Both the position numbers and the translations under genes were made by a program. Of a DNA stretch of 64,000 bases, positions 1,307 to 49,724 are shown one piece after another. The notes beneath the pieces were generated by a model, which was given only the letters and a program-made list of their open reading frames with translations, made no database searches and had not been told where the DNA came from. Each line of letters begins with the position of its first letter. Position 1 is the first letter of the stretch. Source of the stretch: Apostichopus japonicus (lineage: Eukaryota; Echinodermata; Holothuroidea; Aspidochirotida; Stichopodidae); assembly GCF_037975245.1 (NCBI RefSeq), contig NC_092569.1, positions 15,980,001-16,044,000 on the forward strand. Direction: 5' to 3'.

Positions 1307-1336
1307 ACCCCAGGGCCTCAGATATAGGCCCATAGG

Positions 1337-3043: not shown

Positions 3044-3044
3044 C

Positions 3045-3365: not shown

Positions 3366-3532
3366 AGTGATATTCGAGGATATGAATCCTAAGATGTGTA
3401 AGCCGTAACCAAATAGAGCCACGACACTACTCTTTTTCCAAATGTGTGGGGGGGGGGACATTTGATATTGTTTCCCCCATCCATCGAAATGTAAGGGGAA
3501 GTGCCCCCCCCCCCCCTGGATTGACGCCCATG
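3366..3532. other. GC-homopolymer spacer at duplication edge
   Basis: G-run at 3447-3456 and C-run near 3505-3519, resembling the local MITE cores. Copy A begins immediately after. Confidence 0.45.
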
Positions 3533-5451
3533 CATGGGCACATGAATTCTCGAAAACTTGACTTGAACAGGTACCTTGTAAAACTTGATATTTCTAAATT
3601 AACAGAAGTTGACATGCTAACAGGTTTGTGTTTATTTATTTCAACACCACCGTACATGTGAGGGCGGCATTCTTGAAGCATACCAATAAGAATAGAATCA
3701 GGTAGGAGTTGGTGGTGGTGGTGGTGGGGTGGTGGAGGGTAGTGTTATATTTCTTATTTGTTAAGGTTATCATTTTGGGGGGGGGGGGTTAGGTGTTAAG
3801 GTTTTCTATTTTCTTTGATGGGAGTACTCTATTCGATTAAGCCAGAAAGGGTTTCTTAGTTCACTTCCTTTCACATATTTTACTTATTTGCAGTTATATT
3901 GTCTTGTTCACCTTGTATTACTATATGTTGAAAATAAATGTTAAACTATTAGAATGATTTAATTTTCCAAAGTTCGCGACACATATCAGAGAGATCAAGA
4001 AAGATCGTTTCTTTACAAGAGAAAGCATATATAGAAGACCTGGTATTTTAAAGCGTTGGAAGATGATTGTTTTATTAAATATTAAATATAAGGACATATT
4101 TTTCATATTATAAACAGTTTCAAAATCTGCCTGAATTAAATCTACTTTCATCAATTATATCATGGAGTTAAAACATTCATCCCGACATAAAGTGTAAATT
4201 TGTTCGACATGGTAAAGAATTTGTAAACGTTAATATATACTTTTCAGATGATAACCATGTATAAGATGTATCGGGAACACCGTGACACGGACCTAATACC
4301 GTTCAGTATGTTTCAATGAACGGTGTAAATGTGTTATAGGATCTTCTATGCTGTCAGAAATGTGTAGAAAGATTGAAACGTTGTCACCATTGTTACATTA
4401 CAGATAAAGTTCCTTGAAAATTGACCAATAACGTATAAGACCCATTTTTAAAAATTGTATATTGAAGCGGTTTCGTTGACCTATACCTGATAGCCTAATC
4501 AAAGTAAAACTAATTTAGGCTGTTGGAAAGATTATGTGACATGCGACAGCTCTGAAAATATTTCAAACCGATGGGGCAGGGCTAGACGGGGTGGGGAGAG
4601 CGGAGGGGTTACTGGGAGTAGTATATGTCGGTAAGAACTTCCACCCTCCCCCTTTCCCCTCGGAATTTCGGTGACCCTGAATGGGCAAAGTATCTATATA
4701 CAATTGCTAAATCGAAATTTCTAGATATCTAAAAGTCTTAAAATGTAGAGATTTCGAGATGAATGTTAAAACTTCGACTTACCAATAATTCGTTTTATGC
4801 CTTATGTCCCTTCTAGGCCCGTGATACCATTGTCAAGAACAACAAAATACCTTCCCCCATCCCTCTACCACCGAACCCAAGGGAATGGATGCACTCGCCC
4901 CATCCACCACAACCCCAACCATGTTAAATTGAAACGTATTCTTGCAACACCAAAAAAAACTAGATGATAAATAGGCTATATATGTAGCTAGCAGATACCG
5001 ATTATTGGCTGATGGTCATTTGGATGAATTTAGACCCACCAAATATGTAAAAAAAATCATATGTGATATATATGATTAAAAGCATTACTATCAGTTCATA
5101 TGTTACAATTTTATACCGCATAGTAATTTCATTGAGAACTGAGTCTTTCAACATCTGAGGCTTGCAAATTTGACTGTATAAATTCTTCTCGTAACAGACA
5201 TCCAGATCCACAGTTGCAATTAAGACAAAACTCGATAGGAAAACATAAGACTAATTGTATGGCCTCAAATAACATATGTTTCTAATGTATTACATACATT
5301 TCAAGGGCAATCATGTCGAATATCATTCGAGGTTCTCTGTTAGACCGTTGTTTCAAGGATCTTATCATTTAAATCTGAATATTTTGTAAATCAAAATAGC
5401 TTTAGCCGCTTAGCGGCGCCTGAGCCTATTACCATTATTCCAATCATTCCA

Positions 5452-5612
5452 AGATTAATGTATGTCGTCCAGTTATAGAGTTGTTGACAATTGACAATTC
5501 ATAATCATGGACGTTAAATGTGAATCTAAGAGACTGGCTTCAGTCAGCTTGCGGCTTTGATAAGCCAATGAGGCTTCTTCGCGAATTCCTGCTTGCACGA
5601 GGATCTAAAATA
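5452..5612 (+). mobile_element. SINE body fragment (copy A)
   Basis: Shares GCGGCTTTGATAAGCCAATG and AGGCTTCTTCGCGA with the full SINE at 28975, without the tRNA-like head. Confidence 0.7.
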
Positions 5613-5952
5613 AACATTATACATACATTACTAGCTCTCGTTGTTATATTGTTTTGATAGATTATGCCATATCAAACCTAGAATTCAGTCTACAGTAATA
5701 GGCCTATACTTGACGAAAACTGATTCCGAGACATAGAGTGCTAATGACCTATCATGAGTGACACCTTTATTCAACTTAATTATGATCTTTAAAGACAGCC
5801 CGCACATTGAAGAAACTATTTCCGAGGAATGTGAAACGAATTAGCTGGTATAGGCCTATGTAGGCATATAGCCAGTTTAAAAGTGGACTCGGTGAAGTGC
5901 AGTTTATCATAGTTATTATATAAACAGATATTTAACGGTCCTATATGCCTAC

Positions 5953-6045
5953 CATTACTTGGCTCCCGAAGCAAAATGTTCTGATACAGACAGCGAGAGC
6001 AAGCACGATACCGGTTGCTTTTATATTCAGCACTTCAGAGGCCAT
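5953..6045 (-). pseudogene. Orphan second copy of SUEL receptor exon 1
   Basis: This 93-bp copy matches 24908-25000, with an intact ATG and signal-peptide frame (one residue reads FGSQ for SGSQ, and V for G near the donor). It keeps both possible donors, CAA|GTAATG and ATG|GTAGGC. No lectin exon follows it on the minus strand inside the window, because the duplicated block ends about 80 bp short of the equivalent of exon 2. Confidence 0.65.
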
Positions 6046-6590
6046 TGTAACACTCTGCTATACAGTCTGTGTGTTCAAATGTATCTATTCATAAACGAAC
6101 GTTAATATCAGTGTACCATTTCCCACGGTAACTTCTCTCAACGATATAACCTATACGTAAACTCGACCTATCTAACGGAAATGGGTCAATGGGGAAGAGT
6201 ATTGAGTTTATATATATAAATGACTGTATGGGAGAGTGTGTACAGTGATCACATTTCCGTACAGGTTTCGTACTGAACAATGAATTGCTCAAACTAACTT
6301 ACACATTAAAGCTCGTCACTTTCCAAGACAGCTAGAAACATAGGTAGATTTGTTTCAACTGACATATGTCTTACCCACCATATAATAAGGTTAGCATAGT
6401 ACTCCCCAAACCCATCTGCCAGCTTCCTGAAATGCCTTAAGTCACCTTCAATCCTCCTGAATTTATGATTTTATTATAACATCAGTAGTTTATTTCATAC
6501 TCTTCAACATCAAAGCATGAGAAAGAGTGATGGTGACTCACAAAATGGCAAACAAGTCATTACAGTAGGTCACATTAGGTTATTTTCCGA

Positions 6591-6967
6591 CAAGGGCGTA
6601 TACCGGGGGCTGGGGGCGCCAGCCCCCCCCCCCCAGTGAAAAATGTGGAGGGGCGGAAGTATCATTCCGCCCCCCCCCCCCGCTTCGCAAGTCAGAAAAC
6701 CCCTTTTTCATTTCCAAATGAGAAAAAAAAATCTCATTTGGAGCACCAAATTGCATCTAAGGCCAGGTGAAAATACAAAATTAAGTTTACAAAATGGAGT
6801 GGGTGTTAAAGTGTGCTATATTGCACCAAATTGCATCTGAGGCCACCTGGAAATGCAAAAAAAATCCAAAGGGGAGGGGGACACCCCCTCCCCTTAGACC
6901 CCTCCCCCAGGCCGGCCATCAGTCTTCAGCCCCCCCCCCCACTCAAAAGTAACTTCCTACGCCACTG
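6591..6967 (+). mobile_element. 377-bp hAT MITE, copy 1
   Basis: Ends CAAGGGCGTA and TACGCCACTG, flanked by a perfect 8-bp target duplication TTTTCCGA (6583-6590, 6968-6975). 8-bp duplications and CA(A/G)GGGCG ends fit hAT elements. The interior is shared with 27378-27768 and 25240-25470. Confidence 0.9.
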
Positions 6968-7620
6968 TTTTCCGACAATGTTTAACCGTTCAGGCGTATG
7001 TACACTCACAAAATTGTGTAGGTACCGCTCAGAGGAAAGGTCCCGTTATATTTGCGTATCGTATATCAGCCCTATTGAGAATCTCCATAGAATATGTTGT
7101 ACACACATGTAGCAATCTGAATGAGAATTCCAATCTCAGAATTAATAATTACACCGTAATCAAGATGATCAATTCCGACGGACTCGTTTTTTACCTTTTC
7201 TTCGTAAAATCGACTTGTTCATTTCTACAAGTTAGAAAGGAGGTCTAGCAGACTACCATAGGTGTAAATACTGACTATCATAAGGCTTAGCTTGTTACAG
7301 ATTAAGAGTGGCTATAGACGTGTTAAGAGTAGGACTACCTTTTTCAGGTAACATTAATTATTATGGTATAAACTTACTATGTATTCACTGATGCTTAATT
7401 CATTCCTTCTTGTTAAGTTACACTAGGGCTCCCTCTTCTTGTTATATTTATTCATGATATTGAACCCTAACTCAGTTTTGAAATTGTGGAATGCTGGGGA
7501 AGGGGTGGGTTGGGGTGGGCGGCTAGTTGGACCATCAATGTTCCCTGGTATTGCAATTGCCGACATGCCGGCGTCAAAATCATTGTTGTTAAATATATCA
7601 GGGGGTTATGCGCACCCACC

Positions 7621-8984
7621 CGGCCGCGAATTTTTTTTTCCCAAACAGGTTTGCAATTGCGTGTAAATAGGCGCTCATGATTGGTCGGAAAAGTTACGTC
7701 ATCACGATAGAAACCTTCACTTCCAGGTAACCAAAGTCTCTGCATCCATTCGTTGCAACGAAGATATACCCGTTCACAATTACCCGAGGCTTTGGTTGTA
7801 GATGTGTTTGGAATTGGTTTAGACTTATTGAGCACACTACTATGGTATGATCATCTACTTTGATCGAATTTTTCTGTGAAGGCATTAGTCGATAACAACG
7901 CACAGTGAAATGTTCGTACAGGGTACATCAAACATGCTCTGGTTGCCTATATGTATTATAACTGTGTACACAGTGCAGTGACGGAAAAATATCATACTGT
8001 AGCATGGTGGGCTCATAATTGACGCACTTAAGGATTTGATCAAAGATGTATATCAAGGAAAAATCCAAATCACCCAACTCTATGTGTTTTTCATATGTGT
8101 AGTTCCTCAGAAATGTTATGATCTCAAAATATTTAAGTATCTGTGCTTATGCACAGTAAAATTGAGCAGAATTTGACCACAAAATGTCTGCCTTATCAAG
8201 TTCTTTCATACCCCTAATTTGACACATTCGTCGATTTGCTAACTGTAGTCCAGGCTTTAGTATACATCCATTGACTTTAGATGCTGTTTGCAATGCTCTG
8301 AGCCTCTAAGCGCAGACAGGTCAGGTCCCAGAGAGTAGTCTCATCATATTGAGGTAATGTTGGTTATTTTTAGGATGTAAGATTTCCAAATACAAATCAA
8401 AAAACGTTCAAAACTGGGGGGAGGGTGTTAAAAGCTTAAAAAATACCACAATTTGGTCAGCAAATCTGAGTTGAAATGGATTCAAACTCATGAAAAATGT
8501 AATTCTGCTTGACTGTAAAAAGTTTAGGTGGCCTGCTGTATCGTTGCTAGTAATAATTGAAGGTGCGTCAATTACGGGGGTGCGTCAATTATGAAGCCTT
8601 GACTATACACTAAACTGTTTGCGTATATTCATTCAAGACTCGTGAAGTTGATTTTAATGTAGGCCTACCCATTCCACGAAACGAATTCCGATTGCAGTTG
8701 AACGGCTCACAAATCTTTAATAACGTAAACACGAACCCAATAGAATGTAGCGTATGTATCATAAGTAAGGTCAACATGTGATTCAAGCATTAAAAGTAAA
8801 GTTAGGGCGTTTGATGGGAAACCCCGTAACTAGACTTAATTAAGTGTCCGTGTGTAACTCAGTGCATGTCTTCGAACTTCGAAGCGATGCCCATTATTGA
8901 TGCTGACGTCACGAGCAATCTGATTGGCGGAAAACTCCGTAATTGCAAACCTGTTTGGGAAAAAAAATTCGCCACCCGGCCGTC
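7621..8984. mobile_element. Element with about 95-bp imperfect inverted ends (copy A only)
   Basis: The ends share TTCCCAAACAGGTTTGCAAT and nearby GATTGG/ACGTCA words in inverted orientation at 7621-7715 and 8890-8984. No coding sequence was found inside. The superfamily is not recognised. Confidence 0.5.
8011..8602. mobile_element. Nested element with TCATAATTGACGCAC ends
   Basis: Inverted ends CTCATAATTGACGCAC (8011) and GTGCGTCAATTATGAAG (to about 8600), with an extra copy of GGTGCGTCAATTACG near 8562. It lies inside the previous element. Non-coding. Confidence 0.45.
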
Positions 8985-9059
8985 TCTCTCACTTGCCCGC
9001 ACGTGGTGTTGCAAGCTGAGTAGCCGTTTTGATTGTCCCAAAGTTATGAACAGCACGCA

Positions 9060-10860
9060 AGACTCTTTTCAATACCATTAATTATTTTGCGCAAGCGTAA
9101 TAGATTTCGTTAAGAGTACCCTAAATGAAATAAAGACACTTGGTCGACCATTAACAACTTCTAGTCTATAGGCTGACTTTTCGTTAATGTTAGATGACAT
9201 TAAGCTCAAGGGGAAAATGTCATTAAATGTTTCAGTTGATAGCATAATTATATGCTAATGGACAGGGAGTGTACCACCCTATTTCATTGAATGTTCTTGA
9301 ATGATCACAAATGTTACGTCTTGTCTCAGTATTTTTAGTTGAAAGAAATTTGTTTCTAGGAGTTTTATCATTTGTTCCTTAATTGCTGAGGTTTACCATG
9401 AAAAAAAATTAACATTTAATCTCAAAATTTCGACATTTTTTCTCTATATTTCAACGTTTTAGCCAAATATCCTAACGAATAAGGGTGAAAATATGTCAAT
9501 TTATTTTTCATTTGTTCATAGTGCACTGTCATCGTTAATTACGGTTGAGCTAAGGATTTATGTATTCGACATATTTACTCTCACTGCATATGATGTTAAG
9601 ACAAGTGTTTGCAATTTTTAATTTCAAATACAGAAAACTTAAAAGCTTTTCAATAGTATGCATAATGAATACAATGATTAACTAGAGAAGAATAACTACT
9701 CAAAATTATGGCTAAATTGTCTTCAACAAGAAAAAAAAGTACCATTCAATCAATCAATCTTGTACATTTTCATGTCAACAACAGCCCGTAACATCTACAA
9801 CTTATTTTGTCTTTTCGTCTCAATTCAACATTATTCAGTCAATGTAACTTTCCTCCTAGTTCCTGAGACCAGAACTCATGAATAACATTATGCTGAATAC
9901 ATCCTAGCAGATTTGCAGCAACAATACTAATTAATAAATACTAACATGGCTGACATGATCAAATGGAAGCATTTTTCACCTTCTTTTGAGAACTTGCTGT
10001 GTACCTTTTTAGAAGTGATTTTAAAAAAGATGTAGCATTTAATTCTTATTTTACCATTTAACACATGAAGACAACAACAACAAAACAAGGCGGAAACGTA
10101 AACTTCAGAAGACTTCTGATCAAGGCACATGTAGTATCATTAATAATTAAGACATTTAATTCAAGGTGTTCACAGAAAGATACTTGGTTCATCATTTATG
10201 CTTTAAAAAGCTATTCTGGTGACTGAAGTGGATTGCTGATTAAAATTAAATTGTCTGTATCTCTAGGTTAAAGCCCACATCCCCATCATATTCAGTATTT
10301 GCAGAGATATGATTTTGTTTTAATTACAAATTTGGTCATATTTTTGCATCTGGCAAGAGCACAGTGATGGATGATGCCATCACACTAATCGAGGTGTTAA
10401 TGGTTGCAATCGATATCTACAGTAAAAAGTAACATTTCTACAACAACAACACAAAACATCGAAGTTTAATGAAATTCTAAAATACAGAGAACATTGACTG
10501 CTAAAAAAAAACCATTCCAAATGTATCATATTTCAAGGATAAATCCACAAGAAGGTTAACGTCAGGAAAATATAAAAAGTATTTGGAGAATATCTGTCAT
10601 TGTGACATCACAGTGATATTTTCAATATGAACATCATCATGGTTCCCCTTCCTGAAGGGAATGTGGGTGAGTCCAAATAGGTTACATTTATTCAACCATA
10701 TCTCCAATATAAAGAAACAAGATATTGGTATGGGTTTATTAGGAAAAGAATGACATATCGTTTTTGTATTTAATATATTAGTGTAATATTGACCGCCAAT
10801 GCAATATCCCTTTTAAGTAATAAAACACCGGATTTGAAAGGTGAAAAGTGAAAAGTTCCA
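9060..10860. other. Copy A intergenic DNA
   Basis: Colinear with 25480-29590 in copy B minus its insertions. It is the region between the SUEL exon 1 copy and the DNAAF11 terminal exon copy. No gene seen. Confidence 0.7.
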
Positions 10861-10871
10861 ATGAATCGATA

Positions 10872-11037
10872 TCATATGAGTGGTGGCACATCAGGATCAT
10901 CGACAAAGGCTTCGCTGACTGGCCTTTCCTTGACCTCTTTAAGTGTGGTTCTCTCCCGTGGCTTGTTTTCCTTATTTATAATCAGGTCAATGTTTTTAGC
11001 TGCGGCTGGATCAACCTCCAGAAATTCCCTCTCAGGT
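10872..11037 (-). pseudogene. DNAAF11 exon 15 copy (open frame)
   Basis: Acceptor CTCTCAG|ACC and the reading frame to [14 protein letters not shown] are kept. It is one codon shorter than exon 15 in copy B. It has no intact upstream exon to join, so it is treated as part of a pseudogene. Confidence 0.88.
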
Positions 11038-11852
11038 CTGAGAGTTGAAGATGTGAATAAAGATGGAATCTATAGTTAATACCATATATAAAGTAATGAA
11101 AGGAGGGTGAATCAAAATCAATGTATGTAACTGTATATATACATACATATAATTGAACTGGGAACGGATTTCATAACAAAGGGATGATTTGACCAGTCTA
11201 AGGTTAAACTCGGTCTCACAATTCCAGTGGAGAAGAAGAACAGTGTAACAAACACTTTGCTTCTAAGTGTGTGCGTGTGTGCTGTAACGTTTGACTTCTT
11301 CCTTTTTTCTTTGAATCACTATAATCGTTTACCACGGAAACTTAACATCCTGTTATGATTTTAGCCGTAAATAAAACCTCAAATGTCAGTGAAATGAAAG
11401 CAGTACAAAAGTTTCCTTGTTGCTAAGTGGATCTACTGTACATGAGTGCAGTTTGAAGAGAAAATGAAGAAGTGCAATGGTAGAAAGCTACTTTCAGTAA
11501 GAATTGCTTCAAGTGAATGTTAGAAATTCACTTTGTTTAGTATTTTTTCATCTGCATCTTTAGTGGACATTTTACAATCCATCTTTTTAAATATAACGAA
11601 ATCTAAGATATAAACTGACTCAAGCAATATACTTTATGTGTCTAGTTTTACTTTCATTTCTTCCAACCTGAGTACCCAGACACTGACTTCCCCCTCCCCC
11701 CCCCCCACACATTCCATCTACCCCTTTTATACTCTTATTGATAACAAAAACATGAGCGATCTTATTTGAGTTATGCTAATTTAGTCTAAAGGTGTAATAA
11801 AATACGTCACACAACCAATAAAAAATAAATAAATAAATGTGACTTTCAATAC

Positions 11853-11942
11853 CTCATACGAAGATCACAGGTTTCTGTATTGATCAGTTCCTTCTCCGCT
11901 GTGTTTACTTTAGAACTCGTATGGTGTGATAATTGCTTTCAG
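11853..11942 (-). pseudogene. DNAAF11 exon 14 copy (frameshifted)
   Basis: It aligns with 32138-32226 but has one extra base after the codons for AIIT, which brings an in-frame TAA a few codons later. Acceptor TTTCAG and donor GAG|GTATTG remain. Confidence 0.88.
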
Positions 11943-13072
11943 CTGAAACAGGACGTAAAGGTTAAATATATGGGAATAAATGGAAATGATATACTGTCGC
12001 ACTTAACTTCCTGCTAGTGTTTTCATATGATGATGGGATTGTTTTGTTTCTTTGCTGCTTGGATTTCTTTTGTTATAAAGACAAAAATGTTTTCATTTGG
12101 GTTCCAAAAGAACCCTTGATATACAGCTTTGCATATATCATTGACAGTGTGTACAAATTTCATTGAACTTTCTCACTGAGCAAGCCATGTCAAGGAATGA
12201 TGTGTTTTGATCACTGACAGCTAATCATGTATTTCGTAATGCATCTATTCAGATATCTTAATGATACATAGAATATCATGCATAGCGGTTTTTGGCAAGG
12301 AACGTTAACAATTCAGTTAAATGGAGCAATTCATCTACGAGTTTTGACATTATGTTCTCAAAGTGTTGACTTAGTTTTCTATTTTTTTGGGGGGTGGGGG
12401 GGGTGAGTGTGAAACCTTCCATTTAAGAATCTTATTTCTAATGGCCCACCACAATAAATCAACACTGACAATGGTGCATGATGGTATGGGAGTTCACAAA
12501 CACCTGTGTACATACCCAATTTCATTCATTTACTTAATCATTTATTAGGACATGAAAATGCTCAAATACTTATCAATCAAGAACTGTTCTTTAGCACATT
12601 GCTCACTCCCTCTTTAAATACCTGGACACAAAACAAAAGTCTGTATTTTCTGATCCCAAAATTGCTAGCAAAATGCTTTTTGTTTAACGTTTTCTTGAAT
12701 ATTGAAAACACACGCTCTATTGTAAATGGAAATTAGTCTGTTTCAGCAGAAGACATCACAATTGAGGCAGTAAAGATACATAAATAGTCCATAGTAAATG
12801 ATAGATAGGACAATTCTCAAAGGTTTGCTAACAATAACACCGTTATATATTTTATTTGGAGTTATTCTTGGCTAATGTGATAGTACGGTGTGCCGTCAAT
12901 GTGTAGACTTCCATGGCTTTTCATGGAAGACCAGGCTGCGTAACATCTCTTGGCGAGCACTGTGGATCTATCAATAGTCAGCTGTGCAGGGAATTATAAC
13001 AGTAGGTTCAAGGTCTCTTCGGCGGACGGCAACATAGGAGTGGAGACACCAAGTTGGGGGGAATGTATGTAT

Positions 13073-13165
13073 ACATACATATATTTGGAGAGAGAGGTGG
13101 GTGGAGAGAGGTGGAGAGAGAGAGGTAGAGAGAGAGGGGCGAGCCTGGTGGAGAGACAGGTGGAG
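13073..13165. repeat. GA-rich simple repeat
   Basis: GAGAGAGGTGG-type tract following the TATGTATACATACATATA palindrome; it is absent from the matching place in copy B. Confidence 0.7.
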
Positions 13166-13465
13166 AGAATGAGTTGCAGCACCCAGCAGCGCAGGCTGTG
13201 TGAAACACTGTTTGTGCTGTATAGTTTCCCTTAGTATACACCCCTGATCTGCAGCAATACTCTACATTGTTTGATATTGATTCAGGGGATTTAAGAGCTG
13301 ATGTGGCTGCTTTCATATTAGTCACCATGCCTTAATACAATCTACAGGAAATCATATGAACAATTCAATAGATATGTTTACATGAGTAGGTGATAGAATT
13401 ACATAAATATGATGCAAAGTTTTACATAATGTCTTCACAGTATGACAATATTAAATCTGACAAAC

Positions 13466-13603
13466 CTTTCCTTTGATGACCACCTTCACGTGAGTGGGTT
13501 GAACATCGATATCCATCAACGATGTATCCAAGTGCTTGTAACAAGCAACCTCTAGGAGGAACTGGTTGTCATCTTCATCATCTAATAAAGGAAATTATTT
13601 CCT
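13466..13603 (-). pseudogene. DNAAF11 exon 12 copy (5' damaged)
   Basis: It keeps [20 protein letters not shown] then [14 protein letters not shown] and the GTTTGT donor. The 5' end (13583-13603) has diverged, with a TAA in frame just before the conserved part. The duplication ends here. Confidence 0.88.
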
Positions 13604-15737
13604 AGAAAATCCCACTATTTGAAAATATAATTTCACGGACAGGGAGGGAGCCACTTGGCGCCGAAACCCTAGGTAAGTCGACCCCAAAACTAAACGAAAC
13701 GATGAACACAACACATTGCGTTCAGAAGTGACAGGTTTAATATCACCAAGAAGATGTGGGAAAGGAGTCTTAGCACGCAAATGTGGTTAATCGATGGTCT
13801 CTCATTGTGTCTTTGCGAATTATTGAGTTATCTGCACTTAATTACTGGGAACGGGACACCCAGTCAAATAGAAACCGCACCCATCTAATATGCGAGGGAC
13901 TGGATGTTTGGGAAGCTTGGAATTAATAAAGTTGTTATGGTCGATCACATTCTGCTGTACTGCTTTTAAGTTTCAGGATAGGTTGCTATGAAATATATGT
14001 TCTCTCCGACAGCCTCTATGGTGTAGAATGGTACTTTCAAGTTTCAGAATACCTTGTTATGAGAATATATGAGAACGATACAAAAAGATCAATTTGTTAG
14101 CAATTTCAGCAAAAGTGGTGATGTTAACGTCTAACGTAGGACATGCAGTACATGAGTAACATAAAAACGGCACATAGAACAAACTTGATTCTTTCTTCTC
14201 CGTCTTATTCACAACTACGAAGAGGATAGAAAAGTGACGAGAATTAATCATATGTTGAATAAAATCATTTTGGTATGTGTTTTCTGCATAAGTCATCAAC
14301 ACATCGCATACAAAAATATTTCTTGTGATTTTGAAGATTAAACATCTTATTATAAATGAATATTTTAATTATTATCATGTACAAAACACATGTCCATTAT
14401 AATAAGTAAGCAAATATGAAGCTTTTTATTGAAAGATTTCGTGGTTGGATCATATACAAATGATTTAGCTTGTTGCGAGCCGTTGCCCTGCAGGCAATTA
14501 TGGGGACATTTTCAGCATAATTTAATCAGGTAATGACAATTTGACAGTATAAGTTCACAAAGAATTCATGAAAAGTCATCAATAATACAAATAAAGTCCA
14601 TTTTTCTCCTTCTCGACCGTATTTGCAAAACGTCTCTGCAGCAAACATTGTCCCTCTTAGTCGACATTAAGCGACATTCGCACAAAGATAGCCTTCGTTG
14701 CTGTTCTCCGTATCAGTTTGTCTTACGTTGAGTCAGTACCTCTTGTTGCGCAACTAGGCCTAACATTAAGTTGCTTAGACCCTTCGTCACTCGCTCTATT
14801 GTTCTGCTGTGCTTTACTGAGGCTCGAAAAGATATTCCTGAAGGCCAAATGTATCGATAGTCAAGACTCATTTTTTTTCACCTTCCAAGTAAGGTTGAAT
14901 TTATATTTACTTGCTTTAACTTTGTACGTGGTGTAATTTGTTTCGTTCGATGTTTGTCGTTTCGATGGTGATGGTATGCTAACGAATTCTCAGCCTCGTG
15001 TCATAAATAACAAATTTCATTTATTCATATTGAGTCGTTTTTATTATATTACGCTTACAAAATGCTTGTTTAATTTTTTCTTAAATATATTTATATGCGA
15101 TCAAATAATCCAATATATTTTTTTTAGTAACGTAACAATCTTATATATTACTCAATAATTAAATTAGTGTAAATCGGAGCAGCAGATTTCTTCCTAATAA
15201 GTCTTGTTTTTAAACACGTTTTTTTGGCTCATTTAGCGCAAAAAAAATATTAGGTTTTAGAAATTAATGGTAACAAAATTTATAAATTTAAACTTCGCAG
15301 ACATAACATGCTTTATTTATTGCTGTAGTAAATTACAATAAGACATTATTTTGTGTGGTTTGGCAACACAAATAGCAAGGAAGTTAAAAACGTCACAGGA
15401 TGATCAAAAACGCGTGAAAATATAAAATATGTACGCCTCCTTGAGTATTACAAAAATATTTTTTGTCATCATCCTTTGGAATTTGAGAAATCATATAATG
15501 ATCTTTCATAACTCGTTAATTAAATAAAAGAAAGAAAATCTGAACCTTTTCATCTCCTTTATTAATTAGCTAACGTTAGGTCACTTTGTAACAAGAGCTT
15601 TACAATCTAAGCGGCTTGGCATAACTGTAGTGTTAGCACTATAGCTGTGACATGCTCATAGCAGTAGTGGTTGGTATTTCTTTACAGCACAATTGAATGT
15701 CATGTAAACAAGTATCACTTATTCAATGAGATCACAA
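13604..15737. other. AT-rich spacer, no gene
   Basis: Lies between the end of copy A and the TA microsatellite. Only short unsupported open frames; I see nothing that looks coding. Confidence 0.5.
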
Positions 15738-15801
<64 letters not shown>

Positions 15802-15813
15802 TATATATGTATG

Positions 15814-15846
<33 letters not shown>

Positions 15847-15899
15847 TTATATATATATATATATATTTTACCAAGAAGTATATATATATATATAATATA

Positions 15900-15953
<54 letters not shown>

Positions 15954-15967
15954 TATATATGTATGTA

Positions 15968-15998
<31 letters not shown>

Positions 15999-15999
15999 A

Positions 16000-16044
<45 letters not shown>
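15738..16044. repeat. TA/TATG microsatellite
   Basis: About 300 bp of (TA)n with TATG variants, split once by ACCAAGAAG near 15870. The two halves look like duplicates of each other. Confidence 0.95.
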
Positions 16045-16046
<2 letters not shown>

Positions 16047-16276
16047 GCTCAGTTGTCCAAATGTAATTATATTTGAATGTTGATTACATCACACTGATGC
16101 CTCCTCAAATTAAAACAATTATACCAACTGAAACTATTTCCATAATTACTCGAACTTATTTCAAGAAATTATTTACGCTTTTTTTTAACGAAATGACAAA
16201 AAAAAATATACAAAAATAGATGTAATCATGTAATATTCAGTAGGCCTTATTTGTTAACAAATAAGAACATACTTTC

Positions 16277-16517
16277 TTAACGAATAATTTCGTAACCTTC
16301 ATCAGGCGTTTTCCTGTGTATTTGGCCTTCGTTGACATAATGTGGTTCCTGTGGTCCACACGTAGGATTGTTAACCAACTCGTTATCTTCCTCGGCTCTC
16401 TCAGATAATTGTTGGTGGTAGATTTCTGTGGTATATGTCTGATCGGCAAGGTAGCTCATTTGAACGGCACCTAAATTTCTCTTCTCTCTGAAAGGAATAA
16501 CAAACACAGGCTCTGAT
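16277..16517 (-). CDS. SUEL receptor exon 5 (cytoplasmic tail, stop)
   Basis: The acceptor GAACAG|ATCAGAG was chosen because it restores the phase-2 frame. The tail of about 80 residues ends GYEII-Arg-stop at 16277. It has tyrosines in YLADQTY, TEIYHQQL, HYVNEG and GYEII. YVN fits the Grb2-SH2 consensus (pY-x-N) and YEII fits a YxxPhi or immunoreceptor-like motif. Phosphorylation is inferred, not shown. Confidence 0.7.
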
Positions 16518-17682: not shown

Positions 17683-17714
<32 letters not shown>

Positions 17715-25000: not shown

Positions 25001-25239
25001 TGTACCACTCTGCTATACAGTCTGTGTGTTCAAGGGCAAACTATTTGTCTATTCATAGACAAACGTTGATATCAGTGTACCATGTCGCACGATAACTTCT
25101 CTCAACGTTATAACCTATACGTAAACTCCACCTATCTAACGGAAATGGGTCAATGGGAAAGAAACCGCGTATTTCAGTAGGCCTATAGGAGGAAGAGTAT
25201 TGATTTTATATATAGGCCTATATAGGACTGTATGGGATC

Positions 25240-25472
25240 ACATATATAGCACACTTCAACACCCACTCCATTTTGTAAATAATTTTGCATTTTCATCTGG
25301 CGTTAGATGCAATTTGGTGCTCCAAATGAGATTTTATTCTCATTTGGAAATGAAAAAGGGGTTTTCTGACTTGCGAAGCGGGGGGGGGGGGCGGAATGAT
25401 ACTTCCGCCCCTCCATATTTTTCAATGGGGGGCTGGCGCCCCCAGCCCCCCGGTTCCTACGCCCTTGCATAC
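25240..25472 (-). mobile_element. Truncated hAT MITE, copy 3
   Basis: Reverse-strand copy of the same family. It keeps the CAAGGGCGTAGGAACCGG end (at 25472) and stops in the middle near 25240. Its truncated end is where copy B departs from copy A. Confidence 0.8.
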
Positions 25473-25679
25473 AAGGCTCTTTTCAATATCATTAATTATT
25501 TTGTGCAAGCGTAATATATTTTGTTTAGAGTACCCTAAATGAAATAAAGACACTTCGTCGATCATAACCAACTTCTAGCCTATACTATTGGCTGACTTTT
25601 CGTTAATGTAAGATATCATTAAACTCAAGGGGAAAATCTCATTAAATGTTTCAGTTGATAGCATAATTATAGGCTAATG

Positions 25680-26943
25680 CAGTGGCGGCGGAACCGGGGG
25701 GGGGGGGGCTTGGGGGGGCTCAGCCCCCCCAATGAAAAAGCTGAGGGGGCAAATTCATGATTAGCCCCCCCCCCCAATATTTACCAAGGCTCCGAAACGT
25801 GCATCTGCCCATTTTTTAATGCATACTTGTCGATCTGTCCGATGCACACGCATACTACATAGGTGTAATAATTAAATATGATAATTGATTGTCTGTATCA
25901 TGCCTCATCGAATATTAGTGTTTTAAACAAGAGGGTAATACGCTAAACGCTACACTCATCAACATTTGCGTTTACACTACGAGTACACGCAAGGCGTGGA
26001 ACATGGCTTTATGTTTAAACGCAATCAATTATGAAACGAACAAAAACACAATATTAGCATTTCACCTGTACTGTATAGGGTACATGCATTTTTGACATGA
26101 TGACAGTGCTAGGTCATAGAAATTTGTTGGCAACTGCACATGGTTTTGGAATTACCCATTTGTTGACATTAAGAAATGCTTTCTGTTTTTTCTTATGACA
26201 TTTATTTAATTCAGGGGCGTCGGAGCCGGTACGGGCAGGTCCGGCGAACGCCGGACCAATATTCACGACGCCAAAAAAAAAAAAAAAAAAGTAGGACTAA
26301 AAAAGGAGGGAAAAAATCGCGGAGGTATATGTTTCAATAATTTTCAATAATGATGACGGCAAGTAGGCTAAATGTGACTACTCTGGCATGGCAGGGGTCT
26401 TGTTTTCAAGCTCGGGAAGTGCCATTTCCTGCAATCTGGTAGGCATATTTTCAAAATTTTCTCCATTACGCTACGCGCCAACCGTGGTGGCGCGTAGCGT
26501 AGTGTGACCTACCAAACGTCCCCCCCGATAATTATGATGGTTGGCCACACTCTGAACCGCCGTACCAATCAAAAATAGCTTCCGACGCCCTTGTAATTAT
26601 TGCATTTAATTGCAAGTAGTAATTTACTACACTCAAAAACGTCTTTGCAAATACACGTCGAGTAATAGCTACTCTCTTAAAACACCATCGAATATACAAA
26701 TTACAATGTTTTTACAGATTTTTACGTGCAATCTGAGAAATTGCAGGCTTGAGACCCATGTTTTAGGGCTAGGTATTCGCAGCACAAAACACTCGGGAAG
26801 TGCCGTTTCCGGCCATCTGGGGGGTTTGAAAAACCCAAAATTTTCTTCTACGCTCCGCGCCAACCGATGGTGGCGCTCCGCTTAGATAGTCTCCACAATA
26901 TTAGCCCCCCCCCCCCAATAATTTTCCCGTTCCGCCGCGCCTG
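25680..26943. mobile_element. 1.26-kb hAT element (copy B only)
   Basis: Termini CAGTGGCGGCGGAACCGG and, inverted, CAGGCGCGGCGGAACGGG. A perfect 8-bp target duplication GGCTAATG lies at 25672-25679 and 26944-26951. Copy A has the empty site near 9253. No transposase frame; it contains a nested element at 26212-26593. Confidence 0.92.
26212..26593. mobile_element. Nested hAT-like MITE
   Basis: Ends CAGGGGCGTCGGAGCCGG and, inverted, CAAGGGCGTCGGAAGC. Only TAATT is shared at the flanks, not a full 8 bp. It contains the CACCACGGTTGGCGCG-type module on the minus strand. Confidence 0.7.
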
Positions 26944-27377
26944 GGCTAATGGACAGGGAGTGTACCACCCTATATCACAGAAGGTTCTCCCCGTCGGGCG
27001 ATGGTCACAAATCATACGACATGTTACGTTGAGTTCGATGATTTATGGAAATATTGTTACGTCTTGTCTCAATATTTTTAGTTGAAAAGAAATTGAAATT
27101 TGTTTCTAGGAGTCATTATCATTTGTAACTTAAATGTTGAGGATTACCATAAAGAAAAATTAACATTTAATCTCAAAATTTCGACATTTTTTCTCGATAT
27201 TTCGACGTTTTTGCCAGATATCCTAACGAATAAGGGTGAAAATATGTCAATTGATTGTTCATTTGTTCATAATGTGCTGTCAGCGTTAATTACGGTTGAG
27301 CTAAGAGAGTTGACGTTCTTTTCAGTTCGAGACTTTTTGTCGGGACAGATATTTTCGTCCTATCAGCATGCCACAAC

Positions 27378-27768
27378 CAAGGGCGTAGGAACCGGGGGGG
27401 CTGGGGGGGGGGGGGCGCCAGCCCCCCAGTGAAAAATGTGGAGGGGCGGAAGTATCATTCCGCCCCCCCTGGTTCGCAAGTCAGAAAACCCCTTTTTCAT
27501 TTCCAAATGAGAAAAAAATCTCATTTGGAGCACCAAATTGCATCTTGGGCCAGGTGAAAATACAAAATTAAGTTTACAAAATCGAGTGGGTGTTGAAGTG
27601 TGCTATATTGCACCAAATTGCATCTGAGGCCACCTGGAAATGCAAAAAATTCCAAAGGGGAGGGGGACACCCCCTCCCCTTAGACCCCTCCCCTTAGACC
27701 CCTCCCCCAGGCCGGCCATCAGTCTTCAGCCCCCCCCCCCCACTCAAAAGTACCTTCCTACGCCACTG
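27378..27768 (+). mobile_element. 391-bp hAT MITE, copy 2
   Basis: Same family as 6591-6967, with a perfect 8-bp target duplication GCCACAAC (27370-27377, 27769-27776). Confidence 0.9.
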
Positions 27769-28974
27769 GCCACAACAGTCGAACAATAGTGGCGCCCCTG
27801 CTCTTTTGATAAACAAATGACGAGTTTAGACCCATTTCTTGAAGATGATTGAGTCCCCTTTAACAATTCGTAAAGATACAGTTTATCTCTGAAGGAATTC
27901 CTCCATGTGCTCAATGACCATCAGTGGTATTTGCCTTAGCAACTTTGAATAGGTAAACTATCTGTTTTCTGCTTCTGTGTCGGAAGGAAGGGAGTTGAGG
28001 GCTGTGCGAGGGAGGGGGGGGAGGGGAGGGGAAGAGGGTGCTAAGACAATATTGTACAGACATGCCACTTTCGTCACACCAATGTATTCGAAATATTTAC
28101 TCTCATTGCATTATGATGTTAAGACAAGTGTTTGCAATTTTTCATTTCAAATGCAAAAAACTCAAAAGCTTTTCAATAGTATGCATAATGAATACAATGA
28201 TTAACTAGAGAAGAATAACTACTCAAAATTATGGCTAATTTGTCTTCAACAAGAAAAAAAAAAGTACCATTCAATCAATCAATCTTGTACATTTTCATTT
28301 CAACAACAGCTCATAACATCTACAACATATTTTGTCTTTTCGTCTTAATTCAAAATTATTCAGTCAGTGTAACTTTCATCCTAGTTCCTGAGACCAGAAC
28401 TCATGAATAACATTATGCTGAATACATCCTAGAAGATTTGCAGCAACAATACTAATTAATAAATACTAACATGGCTGACATGATCAAATGGAAACATATT
28501 TCACCTTCTTCTGAGAACTTGCTGTGGTCCTTTTTAGAAGTGAATTTAAAAAATATGTAGCATTTACTGTTATTTTACCATTTAACACATAGAGACAAAA
28601 AACAAACAAAAAACAAGGCGGAAATGTTAACTTCAGAAGACTTCTGATCAAGGCACGTGTTGCAACTTTAGTAATTAAGACATTTAATTCAAGGTGTTCA
28701 CAGAAAGATCATTTATGCTTTAAAAGGCTATTCTGGTGACTGAAGTAAATTGCATATTAAAATTAAATTTTCTGTATCTCTAGGTTAAAGCCCAAATCCT
28801 CATCACATTCGGTATTTACAGAGATATGATTTTGTTTGAATTACAAATTTGGTCATATTTTTGCATCTGGCAACAGCACAGTGATGGGTGATGTCATCAC
28901 ACTAATCGAGGTGTTAATGGTTGCAATCAATATCTACAGTAAAAAGTAACATTTCTACAACAACAACACAAAAC

Positions 28975-29204
28975 ATTATGCCTTTCAATCAAAAGGTCCC
29001 CGGTTCGAGTTCAGATTAATGTATGTCGTCCATTTACAGAGTTGTTGACAATTAACAATTCATAAACATTGGACGTTAAATGTAAGAGACTGACTTCGGT
29101 CAGCTCGCGGCTTTGATAAGCCAATGAGGCTTCTTCGCGAGTTCCTGCTTGCAGGAGAATCTAATGTACATACATACATACACCCGTATATACATACATT
29201 GAAG
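28975..29204 (+). mobile_element. tRNA-derived SINE, copy B insertion
   Basis: Copy A lacks it (10458). It has a perfect B-box-like GGTTCGAGTTC and a tail of TACA repeats. The body matches 5452-5610 and 24405-24570, which sit in both copies and so predate the duplication. Confidence 0.75.
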
Positions 29205-29604
29205 TTTCATGAAATTCTAAAATACAGAGAACATTGACTGCTAAAAAACACATTCCATATGTATCATATTTCAAGGATAAATCCACAAGAAGGTTAACGT
29301 CAGGAAAATATAAAAAGTATTTGGAGAATATCTGTCATTGTGACATCACAGTGATATTTTCAATATGAACATCATCATGGTTCCACTTCCTGAAGTAAGG
29401 GAATGGTGAGTGGGTCTAAATAGGTTACATTTATTCAACCATATTTCCAATATAAAGAAACAAGATGGGTTTATAAGGAAAAGAATGACATATCGTTTTT
29501 GTATTTAATATAAGTGTAATATTGACCGCCAATGCAATATCCCTTTTAAGTAATAAGACACCAAATTTGAAAGGTAAAAAGTGAAAAGTTCCAATGAATC
29601 GATA

Positions 29605-29773
29605 TCATATGAGTGGTGGCACATCAGGATCATCAACAAAGGCTTCGCTGACTGGTTTTTCCTTGACCTCTTTAAGTGTGGTTCTCTCACGCCGTGGCTT
29701 GTTTTCATTATTTACAATCAGGTCAATGTTTTTAGCTGCGGCTGGATCAACCTCCAGAAATTCCCTCTCAGGT
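29605..29773 (-). CDS. DNAAF11: DNAAF11 exon 15 (C-terminus, stop)
   Basis: The acceptor is CTCTCAG|ACCTG, phase 2. It runs from [20 protein letters not shown] to [14 protein letters not shown], matching human EKLEVDPS and EVPPLI. A possible AATAAA lies on the minus strand at 29435-29430, about 170 bp past the stop. Confidence 0.92.
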
Positions 29774-32700
29774 CTGAGAGTTGAAGATGTGAATTAAGGT
29801 GAAATCTATAGTTAATACCATATATAAAGTAATAAATATAGGGTAAATAAAAATCAATGTACGTATATGTATATAAACATACATATAATTGAACTGGGAA
29901 CGGATTTCATAACAAAGGGATGATTTGATTAGTCTAAGGTTAAACTCAGTCTCATATGTCAAGTGAAGAAGAAAAAAGTGTAACAAACACCTTACTCCTT
30001 AGTGTGTGTGTGCTGTAATGTGTAACAAACACCTAACTCCTTAGTGTGTGTCCTTAGTGTGTGCGTGCTGTAATGTGTAACAAACACCTTACTCCTTAAT
30101 GTGTTTGCTGTAATGTGAAACAAACACCTAACTCCTTAGTGTGTGAGTGCTGTAATGTGTAACAAACACCTAACTCCTTAGTGTGTGAGTGCTGTAATGT
30201 GTAACAAACACCTTACCCCTTAATGTGTTTGCTGTAATGTGAAACAAACACCTTACTCCTTAGTGTGTGAGTGCTGTAATGTGTAACAAACACCTAACTC
30301 CTTAGTGTGTGAGTGCTGTAATGTGTAACAAACACCTAACTCCTTAGTGTGTGAGTGCTGTAATGTGTAACAAACACCTAACCCCTTAATGTGTTTGCTG
30401 TAATGTGAAACAAACACCTTACTCCTTAGTGTGTGTGTGCTGTAATGTGAAACAAACACCTTACTCCTTAGTGTGTGAGTGCTGTAATGTGTAACAAACA
30501 CCTAACTCCTTAGTGTGTGAGTGCTGTAATGTGTAACAAACACCTTACCCCTTAATGTGTTTGCTGTAATGTGAAACAAACACCTTACCCCTTAATGTGT
30601 TTGCTGTAATGTGAAACAAACACCTTACTCCTTAGTGTGTGTGTGCTGTAATGTGAAACAAACACCTTACTCCTTAGTGTGTGTGTGCTGTAATGTGTAA
30701 CAAACACCTTACACCTGTGTGTGTGTGGGTGTGTTTGCTGTAATGTTTGAATATTTTTCTATTATTTTAGCTACAAGGAAAAATTAACATCCTGTTTTGA
30801 TTTTAGCCAATACCAAAACCTCAAATGTCAGTGACAAGGAAAGCAATACCAACATGTCCTTTTTGCTAAGTGGATCAACTATACATATATACTTGAATGA
30901 GCGCAGTTTGAAGAGCGACCAGAATGCAAAAAATGAATTGTGGTTTTTAATGATGTAACATGAGCAGTTTTCTTCATGAATCTGACGTAATGTATTGTGA
31001 GGGTGTACAACATACTTGATCTTAGTAATACAGTGAAAAGCAGTGTGATGTTACAAACAATAAATTCACAATGACACAGGCTGTCCTGATATAACCATTG
31101 ACCTCAACAACAGGCTTCTTGTACTAAATGTGATAGATACATCAACATACTAAATATGACATCTGTCCTTGTTGAAATATTGTGTAAAACATGGTTTTCA
31201 CAATTTGAATGAAATGACCATTTGCCACAGCATTAGGCCTCTTGTACACAATGTGGTACTTCTACACACCACATATGAGGTTTGCACATGCTTTCCTTCT
31301 TGAGATATCGTGTTTACAAGGTTTTCACATTTTGACCCCTGGTGACCCCAAATGACCTTTGACCTCTACCAAAAATAATATGCTTCTTGTACGCAATGTG
31401 GTACTTCCACACATGAAATATGAAATTGGTCCGAACTTCCCTTTTCGAGATATCGTGTTTACAAGGATTCACAATTTGACTCCTGGTGATCCCAAATGAC
31501 CTTTAACCTCCACCAAAAACAATAGGCTTCTTCTACTCAATGTGGTACTTCTACACACCAACTATGAAATTGGTCCGACCTTTCTTTCTTGAGATATCAT
31601 GTTTACAAGCTGGGCGTCACAAATGCACACATACACACATCTAGGTGTGTATTCAAACACAAGTCCCCTGATTGATGTGGCGGTTCAAGCACACACACAC
31701 ACATCTGCCATCATGAATGCAAAGGTTACAAATATCATCAAAGAGCAAGTTCAATGGCAGAAAGTTACCTTTAGTAAGAACTGTGATTGCTTCAAGTGAA
31801 TATAGCAATTCACTGACTAAGTCTACTATTTTTCTGACTCCATCTTTAGTAGACAATTTAAAACACCAAACTTTCAAATTATAACAAAATCTAAGATATT
31901 GGAATAAACTGACTCAAGTAATACTTTATGTGTCTACTATTACTTTCATTTCTTCCAACCTGACTCCACCCGCCCCCCAACCCAACCACCCCCCCCCCTA
32001 TTCCTCCATATATCCCTTTTACAAATTGTTGGTAACAAAAACATTATCTTATTTGGGGAATGCTGATTTACTTTAAAGGTGTCATAAAATACGTCACACA
32101 ACCGATAAAAAAAACAAATAAATGTGCCTTTCAATACCTTGTACGAAGATCACAGGTTCCTGTATGGTGCAGTTCCTTCTCCGCTCTGTTTACTTTAGAA
32201 TTCGTCCGGGTAATAACTTCTTTCATCTGTAACAGGACGTAAAAGGTTAAATATATCATGGTAATAACATAGTGTAGCAGTATCACTTCCTGACAGTGTT
32301 TACACATCAGCAAAGGATTGTTTTTTCTTGCTTGGTTTTGTTTAAAATTAAAAAATGAAAAAAGGTTTTCATTTTGGGTTGAAACAGGATCTAATATTTT
32401 TGTTATCAAAGGTACTGTTGCATTCATACTTGTTTATACTAAACTTCGAAAAATTATTCTTTACGGTAGCCCAGAGCGGACATTGCAAATGAAATGAAAT
32501 AAATATATCGATAAGACTCAAAATTTTCAAATTTTAGTTCACAATTTTTTTTTTTTTTGTCACTCCTGAACCACCAGTAAGAGTTACTGACTAATGAACA
32601 TCTCTGGACAGTTGGTTGTAATTCACTTAATAATACAGACTTTCTTAATTTTTTATGATAGACAAAAATGTTTTTCTGGAGCAAATTACGGGCCAAAGAA

Positions 32701-35700
32701 CCAAACTTATTTCAATAAAACTAGATTGAGCGATGTGCGGAATGCGCCGGCCGAGTTCTGAAGCCTGTGGGCTTATGCCGCATACATATCCTTCTCATCT
32801 GCAGTGTATGGCCAGGGGCAAGTAATGTAGAACCCTTGATATACAGCTTCGCATATATCACTGACAGTGTGTACAGATATCGTTCAACATTCTCACCGAG
32901 CCAGCCATGTCACGGAATGCTAATGTGTTTTGATTACTAACATAAATAAAATTAAAATAAATAAATACCATATATTAAAGTGCTGTTATCATGAAATAAA
33001 ACATGCTCAAGAGCACTGTACAAAAGAACCAATACCTGGAATATAAAATTACCAAACTTAAGTAAACCTAAAAGTAATAATAACAGCAATAAAAGTAAAA
33101 AATGATATAAGACAGGGATATAAACCACAATAAAGATAAAAATAAAAATAAAAATATATATAAAAATGGACAGTAATGTAATGGTTAGTTGTAATTCAGG
33201 ACGGTTAGTAATTCAGGACGGTTAGGTTACTAACAGTTTATCATGTACTTTGAAATGCATTTATGTTAGATCCCTTAATTACGCACAGCATATAATGAAT
33301 AGAGGCTGTTGGCAAGTGCCATTAGCACTAAAGTTAAATGGAGCAATTCATCTAACAAAATTCATAACATCAAAGTGTTGCCTTAAGTTTTGTTTTTTGA
33401 GTGAAAGCTTCCACTTAAGAAATGTTTTTCTAATGATCCACCACAGTAAAGTAACACTGGCACTGGTACATGATGGTATGGGGTTCACAAACACTAGTTC
33501 ATCAATTTCATTCATGTACTTAATCATTTATTAGTACATGAAAATGTTCAATTCCTTATCAATCAAAAACTGTTCTTTAGCACATTGCTCACTCCCTCTA
33601 TAAATACCACTATGCAAAACACACTCTGGATGTTGTGGTAATTGATGAACACTCAGTTTAACAACAGTATATATTTTCTGACCCCAAAATTGCTGGCAAA
33701 ATGTTTGTTGTTGAATGTTTGTTGAATATTCAAAACACATGCTTTATTGAAAATAAGTCTGTTTGAGCAGAAGACATCACAATTGAGGCAGTAAGAATAC
33801 GTACATAGTCCACAGTAAATGATAGATAGGACAATTCTCAGACGTTTGCTCAAACTTGCACCGTAAAATATTACGTTTGGGGCTAATGGGATGGTACGGT
33901 GTGAGGTCTGTGTATAGACATGCATGGGCAACAGTTACTCACAGACATATCCCCACAGAGATATATCCGATCAGGCTATCAGGTGTTATGACAAGGTATC
34001 ATTGGTCATGGAACACTAGGTTGTGTAAGACCTCTTGAGAAGCACCGTGGGTTTATAAATATATTCAGCTGCGCATGGAATCATGGCAATTTGTCCAAGG
34101 TCTCTGTGGTGGACGGCAACAGAGGAGTTGGGTACAGCCAGTTGGAAGGAATGTATGTGTGTTTATATATATAGTTATGTGTATGTTTATATAGTTATGG
34201 TAATAGGTTAAAGATATTATAATGTGTGCCAAAGACAGGACACTGAGGGGGTCGCAGCACCCAAGCAGCCAGCCTGCGTGCGACATTGGTTGTGCTGCAT
34301 TTTACAGTAAGTTCGGGATAGGGCCTTTTAGTCACAAACAATATTCGTCTATCAAGAGACTTTTGCAATGTCTATGTCAGAGTTGGGAAAAAGACTGACC
34401 TTTGGCATGGTTATCAGTAGGTGACCTGTAGTCTGTGACCTTTGTGCTGTACTGCTATCCGGTTTGACTTCCTCTGCTAGGACCAGTTGAAGCACCTTCA
34501 ACAACAAGAGAAACAACAACAAAAAAATGGAATACAACTGACAAGATTGCATTAGCCCTGATTAGTTGAGTTTAAGTCCTTTTCAGGAATATATAGTTGT
34601 GGTCATAGTATGAAGGTAGGAGACTATGTGTCAAAGGTAGGATGTATACACTTAAGGGAGTTGCAGCACCCGGCAGCCCAGGCTGTGTAGGACATTGTTT
34701 GTGCTGTACAGTACCTCACAATATTGTTTTTAAATAAAAAAATCCTTATAGATACATATATATTTTTATATTAATTTTCAAGCTGAGTCCATTTGATTTT
34801 TCCTATTCATATTTTAAGGGATTTTGTCATTTTGTTACTTAAATTTACTTAAAACTCACTTTTTTTCTATTTTTAAAAATTATTCCTTCGTTTATATATA
34901 TATTTTTATATTAATAGTTAAGCTACGTCCATTTTAGTTTTCATATTCATATTTAAAGGGATTTGTCATTTGTAGTCATTGTAAAGCGCTCTCGAACAAG
35001 CTTAATTAAGCATGAAAAGAGCGCTAGATAAATTTGGCAAAGTAATAACCCAATATACATTCCTGGTCTGCAGCAATACTCTCTACTGTTGGATGTTGAT
35101 TCAGCCTGGCTGCAGGGCATTTTGAGCTTCTGCAGCTAGGCTTTCAGTTTCTGACACCGGGCCTTGACACAATCTACGGGAAATTATCTGAACTTTCCCT
35201 TTGATAGATATGGTTAAGTGAGTGGGTTTGATAATTAAATAAATACGATGCAGAATGTTTACATAAATCTTCCCACGGTAAATAAAACATTTAATCTGAC
35301 AAACCTTCCCTTTGATGACCACCTTCACGTGAGTGGGTTGAACATCGACATCCATCAACGATGTATCCAAGTGCTTGTAACAAGAAACCTCTAGGAGGAA
35401 CTGGTTTTCATCTTCATCATCTATTAAAGAGAAATCCATCCTGGGAGAGAAAGAAGAGTTAAAACTCTCACCGATTGACAGGATAATAGTGAAAGCGTGG
35501 TGGCCAATTGGCTAAGGCTTCGGACTCGTGATCCAAGGATTGCTGGTTTGATTCCTGCCTAGTTCATTACGTTGTGTCCTTGGGCAAGATGCTTTATCTC
35601 ACTTGCCTCTCTCCACCCAGGGGTTAAATGGGTACCTGTGAGGTAACTTGTCATTGGGCGCAGAATATAACTGCTGCCGACTGGAGGGATTGTCTCTGGG

Positions 35701-49547: not shown

Positions 49548-49724
49548 CTTGAAAAATTTAGAGAGAAGATGAATTAGAAAACAATCACTCTGATTAAATG
49601 GTTTAGCTTAATTACTATTAGAAGTCTGCTAAGTATAACTTTTAGTTTTTGTAAAATGACCGTTATATCAGACGGCTCATTTACCTATATGAAAGAAGCT
49701 GGATTAATAACACCGACAGCTACA

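Follow-up and report, generated by a model that had tools for sequence, protein, structure and literature searches.

Recombination associated with minisatellites is a known phenomenon. A border between a near-alike and a diverged part of one duplicate pair is also seen in human interlocus gene conversion, where events average 6.26 kb and hotspots overlap high-identity duplications (median 99.4%; PMC10172114). Here we describe a pair of direct copies, A and B, of a unit that joins parts of two neighbouring genes, DNAAF11 and a SUEL-type lectin gene, in a 64,000-nucleotide window of the sea cucumber Apostichopus japonicus (contig NC_092569.1; G000:C9:15980001-16044000). Copy A is a mosaic of two ages, which is the main value of the finding and was missed by an earlier, sequence-only reading of the window. 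Probably, an old duplication was followed by interlocus gene conversion of the SUEL side, ending near a minisatellite.

Compared with the human events as reported, the tract here is ordinary in size (7.7 kb in A, of which 4.7 kb is compared and 2.8 kb is A-only), since the human mean is 6.26 kb, whereas the copies are old, 20% apart, and a single pair in a single genome is concerned. Like an unprocessed partial pseudogene spanning two neighbouring genes, copy A keeps introns, lies nearby in direct orientation and has suffered exon loss and a frameshift; unlike such a pseudogene, about two thirds of its compared sites (4725/6949) look refreshed rather than uniformly decayed. As in minisatellite-associated recombination, the divergence border lies at a minisatellite expanded in one copy, but this is a single case, seen in sequence. 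Among the papers listed on A. japonicus segmental duplications (3 of 3) and on sea cucumber DNAAF11, LRRC6, SUEL or rhamnose-binding lectin (10 of 65), no title or abstract opening describes the locus. The case is a well-formed instance of known processes, both of them well known; one echinoderm duplicate displays decay on one side and refreshment on the other, with the border at a minisatellite. Dating such duplications by a single number can mislead, and in the SUEL 5' region and at the last DNAAF11 exon short reads may mis-map between the copies.

Two levels of divergence in one duplicate pair

Self-comparison of the window showed that 3530-13595 (copy A) is a direct, collinear match to 19333-35439 (copy B). 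The pair divides as follows; here and below, strand is given where a feature has one.

3530-11212, copy A, segment 1 (young): last DNAAF11 exon, spacer and SUEL exon 1, running into intron 1; 5.9% divergence
6234-9057, copy A: A-only stretch of 2.8 kb in segment 1
11291-13595, copy A, segment 2 (old): DNAAF11 introns and exon remnants; about 18-20% divergence from B
19333-29948, copy B: counterpart of segment 1
30728-35439, copy B: counterpart of segment 2
11243-11290, copy A: one unit of a 42-bp minisatellite, ~30 bp from the divergence step
29978-30727, copy B: the same 42-bp minisatellite, ~17.8 units

Across 6949 compared sites, divergence between the copies was 5.9% (4725 sites) to the left of A 11212 and 20.1% (2224 sites) to the right. 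The step at this position (95% interval 11098-11221) gave a log-likelihood gain of 150; when 50-site blocks were permuted 1000 times and scanned every 25 sites, the gain averaged 12 and never exceeded 55. Three further alignment settings, in a check that omitted two segment 2 exons and the shortest blocks, returned 5.6-5.9% versus 18.0-19.1%, with gaps at 0.8-0.9 versus 2.1-2.7 per 100 sites. At non-coding sites, the Kimura two-parameter distance was 0.064 in segment 1 (4467 sites) and 0.245 in segment 2 (1896 sites). A second, weaker step near A 3675 (13% versus 5.7%; gain 5.3) may be the other end of the young tract.

The border between young and old sequence is collinear in both copies, and a sharp shift in divergence within collinear copies, as seen here, is a mark of interlocus gene conversion. 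The step disfavours a uniform duplication of a single age. Purifying selection across the whole of A segment 1 also seems unlikely, given that the segment is mostly non-coding and holds repeats. The real, partial and direct duplication of a two-gene junction proposed by the sequence-only reading is supported; the single event and single timeline that it implied are not, the copy being a 6% and 20% mosaic with a sharp border.

Extent and gene content of the copies

The limits found here agree to within a few bases with those read earlier from the letters (3533-13600 and 19337-35440, in the same order). The self-comparison was arranged into 15 direct collinear blocks, which pair A 3530-13600 with B 19333-35440 and cover ~7.0 kb of A in alignment; the final BLAST block of the pair stops at A 13595 / B 35435. 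One candidate block, A 6605-6967 / B 27404-27768, was out of order and a repeat-family match, and was removed from the counts. The genome (671,581,487 bases, 35 contigs) was searched with A 3533-4533, 9560-11290 and 11290-13700, for which the best 40 of 183, 653 and 81 candidates, respectively, were scored; within A 4534-9559, the query covered 5439-5640 only. Among the best 40 candidates per query, the only long matches to the queried parts were A and B themselves, the remaining rows being short dispersed repeats. Two long collinear copies with introns and intergenic DNA, and no high-copy repeat in the queried parts, identify the pair as a segmental duplication, which is real in the assembly. 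The window contains zero N, and the copies are separated by a segment with no counterpart in either.

As had been proposed, the duplicated unit takes in the 3' portion of DNAAF11, the spacer and SUEL-lectin exon 1. In B, the left edge of homology (19333) is 79 bp away from the exon of the SUEL domain (19254-18940), and the right edge falls inside the DNAAF11 CS-domain exon (35439-35305), in keeping with the earlier placement of the ends about 80 bp from SUEL exon 2 and within DNAAF11 exon 12. On the right, homology tapers within the first 19 bp of the exon (12/19 bases identical, counted by eye), and an extension of the alignment (A 13600-14900 versus B 35440-36739) scored 327, compared with a mean of 332 and a maximum of 413 in 30 shuffles. 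On the left, copy A adjoins what by eye is repeat-like sequence, which could be the mark of a later deletion, and the left flank of A (1-3530) aligned to the SUEL gene body with a score of 398 (shuffles: mean 444, maximum 578). The ends of A/B homology need not be the duplication breakpoints. Separately, a 92-bp match (85%) links the left flank, at -5090 to -5001 counted from the window, with 13833-13923 between the copies, and is perhaps a repeat or a remnant.

DNAAF11 lies on the minus strand, and a motif search puts its leucine-rich-repeat exons at about 47.5, 46.0 and 45.4 kb. Its joined C-terminal part matches PF23602 (1.2e-35). Of the three genome matches to this family, two are the CS exon, once in each copy, and the third is the following exon, matched in B but not in A; a PDB search with the same part gave one chance-level match (E 0.086). 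The exons in the two copies are:

35305-35439, minus strand, copy B: CS-domain exon (exon 12 of the earlier reading), by domain search
13466-13600, minus strand, copy A: copy of the CS-domain exon; 5/127 sites (13466-13592) differ from B
34400-34495, minus strand, copy B: next exon, with the rest of the CS domain; absent from A
32137-32226, minus strand, copy B: exon whose A copy carries a frameshift and a stop
11853-11942, minus strand, copy A: copy of 32137-32226 with frameshift and stop; 14/89 sites differ
29605-29772, minus strand, copy B: last exon, terminating in a stop codon
10872-11036, minus strand, copy A: copy of the last exon; frame open, one 3-base deletion, 5/165 sites differ

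Where B has the 34400-34495 exon, A has 86 bp, largely GA/CT-rich repeat, versus 485 bp in B. With this exon lost and another frame disabled, copy A as a DNAAF11 gene is dead and partial, a pseudogene. By eye, its CS exon carries an in-frame TAA near the 5' end, where homology is already weak. The 5/127 differences in this exon, set against about 20% in the non-coding DNA of segment 2, are few for neutral decay of A at 0.1225 (P 0.001), and the exon (A 13466-13592) is perhaps another, smaller patch of conversion; the 14/89 differences of exon 11853-11942 are consistent with plain decay. Lasting function of the A CS exon, suggested by its few differences, was considered and disfavoured on one synonymous and three non-synonymous changes in the well-aligned part, plus the 5' stop (by eye, at few sites). 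Because of these non-synonymous changes and the stop codon, the exon fits a small converted patch better than function, in numbers too few to settle the matter.

Two further features lie within DNAAF11. At 36740-37937, upstream of the CS-domain exon, is a 30-bp minisatellite of ~39 units with long open stretches in several frames, and on the plus strand at 39966-40394 is an open frame with a GIY-YIG domain (PF01541, 1.5e-05), which we take to be perhaps the remnant of a Penelope-like element.

The lectin gene is of SUEL type by the SUEL_Lectin domain (PF02140) in its non-duplicated body. Exon 2 onward is absent from copy A, which leaves the following features:

24908-25000, minus strand, copy B: SUEL exon 1, signal-peptide-like by eye
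5953-6045, minus strand, copy A: orphan SUEL exon 1; 2/93 sites differ, frame open
18940-19254, minus strand: exon encoding the SUEL lectin domain (PF02140); no counterpart located next to copy A
16831-16935, minus strand: SUEL transmembrane exon, an exon by eye; no counterpart found beside copy A
16280-16486, minus strand: SUEL tail exon, an exon by eye; no counterpart found beside copy A

A tblastn search of the 40 kb to the left found no SUEL or DNAAF11 exon above chance. The next SUEL domains listed on the contig are ~0.85 Mb off, so that a second SUEL exon 2 that could belong to copy A did not turn up. A regular-expression search for SUEL and CS motifs had no match, the motifs being too strict. 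Further clusters of SUEL domain exons occur at G000:C9:15128205-15152512 (~0.85 Mb from the window) and at C15:24278676-24606996 (>0.3 Mb long). In the interval that separates the SUEL gene from copy A, immediately downstream of the gene, is an AT-dinucleotide run of ~300 bp (15740-16044).

Insertions and the order of events

Repeats were used as relative clocks, and the ends of six stretches that were longer in B or disputed were read. The features concerned are:

3701-3939, copy A: dispersed repeat TE1, at the same site in A and B
5444-5630, copy A: SINE-like dispersed repeat TE2, at the same site in A and B
34713-35053, copy B: B-only dispersed repeat in segment 2, lacking from A; no clear target duplication
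25680-26944, copy B: B-only repeat of 1.27 kb; 8-bp target duplication, empty site in A
32943-33228, copy B: B-only insertion; 9 bp flanking duplication, empty site in A
28977-29195, copy B: B-only insertion; about 4 bp flanking duplication, empty site in A
21174-24391, copy B: B-only element of 3.2 kb; ~500-bp inverted ends, 96% alike, about 2 bp flanking duplication, empty site in A

Four of the six stretches pair an unoccupied A site with a duplication flanking the insertion in B. The 1.27 kb repeat has 40 other long copies among the matches listed, 89-96% identical, and is presumably hAT-like, judged from the 8-bp size of its target duplication; the inverted ends of the 3.2 kb element contain 144-bp tandem units. 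Opposite B 25238-25471, the A site is not empty and holds 2.8 kb of its own. The insertions present in one copy only, from which the sequence-only reading drew a relative timeline, do exist.

Against a consensus built from 26 of the 38 further copies listed, TE1 differs at 15/226 sites in A and 15/213 in B; against one built from 28 of 38 for its own family, TE2 differs at 10/184 (A) and 8/184 (B). Insertion before the segment 2 split would predict differences of ~9-12%. For half-divergences of 0.1225, 0.105 and 0.09, Poisson P values were 6e-5, 0.002 and 0.025 for the pooled A paths (25/410) and 3e-5, 0.001 and 0.016 for the pooled B paths (23/397). TE1 and TE2, both in segment 1, look younger than the segment 2 split, at a P that depends on the baseline. 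The B-only repeat at 34713-35053 shows 26/309 differences from a consensus of 14 of 49 other listed matches, too many for insertion after the segment 1 split (P about 1.5e-5). It thus predates that split, so that A and B were already separate before the last common ancestor of segment 1. The order supported, although not proven, is the segment 2 split, the B-only segment 2 repeat, TE1 and TE2, the segment 1 split and then the B-only segment 1 insertions, among them the 1.27 kb repeat at 25680-26944.

Proposed history and its competitors

We infer a history that would begin with one direct duplication, downstream of the SUEL gene, of at least the DNAAF11 3' part, the intergenic spacer and the SUEL 5' part. 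The simplest origin would be a tandem duplication of the DNAAF11 3' part, the spacer and the SUEL gene, with later loss of SUEL exon 2 onward from A; a smaller copied unit inserted downstream of SUEL is a possible alternative. Copy A then decayed, with one DNAAF11 exon lost, one frameshifted and SUEL exon 2 onward gone. Much later, ectopic gene conversion, or a non-reciprocal exchange equivalent to it, would have made its SUEL-side part (about 3.6-11.2 kb at present) uniform with B. This tract ends on one side by the minisatellite, a plausible break or template-switch site, and the diverged introns beyond would have stayed unconverted. Since the two parts of A, young and old, meet in register with B, homology most likely guided the later event, whether it was conversion or an exchange of the same effect. 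Its direction was likely from working B to dead A, because the reverse would place decayed sequence in the working DNAAF11 and SUEL genes.

Several points weigh against this history. The step interval stops ~20 bp short of the minisatellite unit in A, and the association of border and minisatellite is one coincidence, which says nothing on cause. At the baseline of 0.09 the repeat dating is modest (pooled P 0.025 and 0.016; TE1 alone 0.14), the A and B repeat paths are not independent, and the age of the 34713-35053 repeat does not significantly exceed that of TE1 and TE2 (P 0.24). Family copies were picked by similarity to the copy in the window, which biases all three apparent ages downward. 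Several of the segment 1 repeat insertions must postdate the conversion, and no vestige of the lost SUEL exons could be detected in the 40 kb to the left. The direction and the ancestral state would both be read from the A/B pair, in a comparison without an outgroup.

Such a comparison leaves room for a duplication of a single age in which the DNAAF11 3' part changes more quickly than the spacer and the SUEL 5' part, or in which selection restrains segment 1. Rate differences along a chromosome are normal, and the repeat dating is modest at the most conservative baseline; we nevertheless regard this explanation as unlikely, in view of a three- to four-fold step within ~100 bp, with both sides mostly non-coding and the slow side a spacer with dispersed repeats. 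In addition, the repeats shared in segment 1 look younger than the segment 2 split, and the B-only segment 2 repeat is older than the segment 1 split. Two overlapping duplications at different times, the second adding a new spacer and SUEL exon 1 beside an old fragment, would also account for two ages and for shared young repeats. However, the parts of A join in register with B within ~100 bp, which is not expected by chance from a non-homologous insertion, and a homologous second event would be conversion or unequal exchange under another name; we consider such a pair of duplications likewise unlikely.

A false duplication, with unmerged haplotypes of one locus set in series, is scarcely credible, despite a polymorphic species, for which heterozygosity has been estimated at 1.59% by k-mers (PMC5638244) and at 0.986% (PMC5437941), and despite an assembly paper whose main text is without the terms purge and haplotig (PMC10344927). 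The 5.9% and 20% divergences are about 4 and 13 times the heterozygosity of 1.59%, and copy A is not an allele of a working locus because it is missing an exon, is frameshifted and lacks SUEL exon 2 onward. The pair shows neither the divergence in the range of heterozygosity nor the two gene-complete copies that haplotypic duplication produces, and a segment without counterpart lies between the copies in a window with no N. The earlier argument against haplotypes is supported. Copy A might instead be alive, its orphan SUEL 5' region and exon 1 driving a new transcript or its DNAAF11 fragment making a regulatory RNA, with selection keeping its likeness to B. SUEL exon 1 (2/93) and the last DNAAF11 exon (5/165) are indeed still open in A, but on inspection neither is clearly more alike than the surrounding non-coding segment 1 (274/4467). 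Moreover, no SUEL exon 2 remnant was found within 40 kb to the left, and the DNAAF11 part has exon loss, a frameshift and a stop; a living copy A therefore strikes us as very improbable.

A bolder version of the conversion history would have the living neighbour rewrite the dead two-gene fragment again and again, with exchange beginning or ending at the minisatellite, so that the SUEL 5' region would exist in two versions able to trade sequence. We offer this as a long shot; if true, the SUEL gene would have in the orphan 5' region and exon 1 a store of variation to draw on.

Elsewhere in the window, 49709-50467 holds a second long minisatellite of ~17 units of 42 bp, also with a 93-bp period and long open frames, which is a possible source of artefacts in gene prediction.

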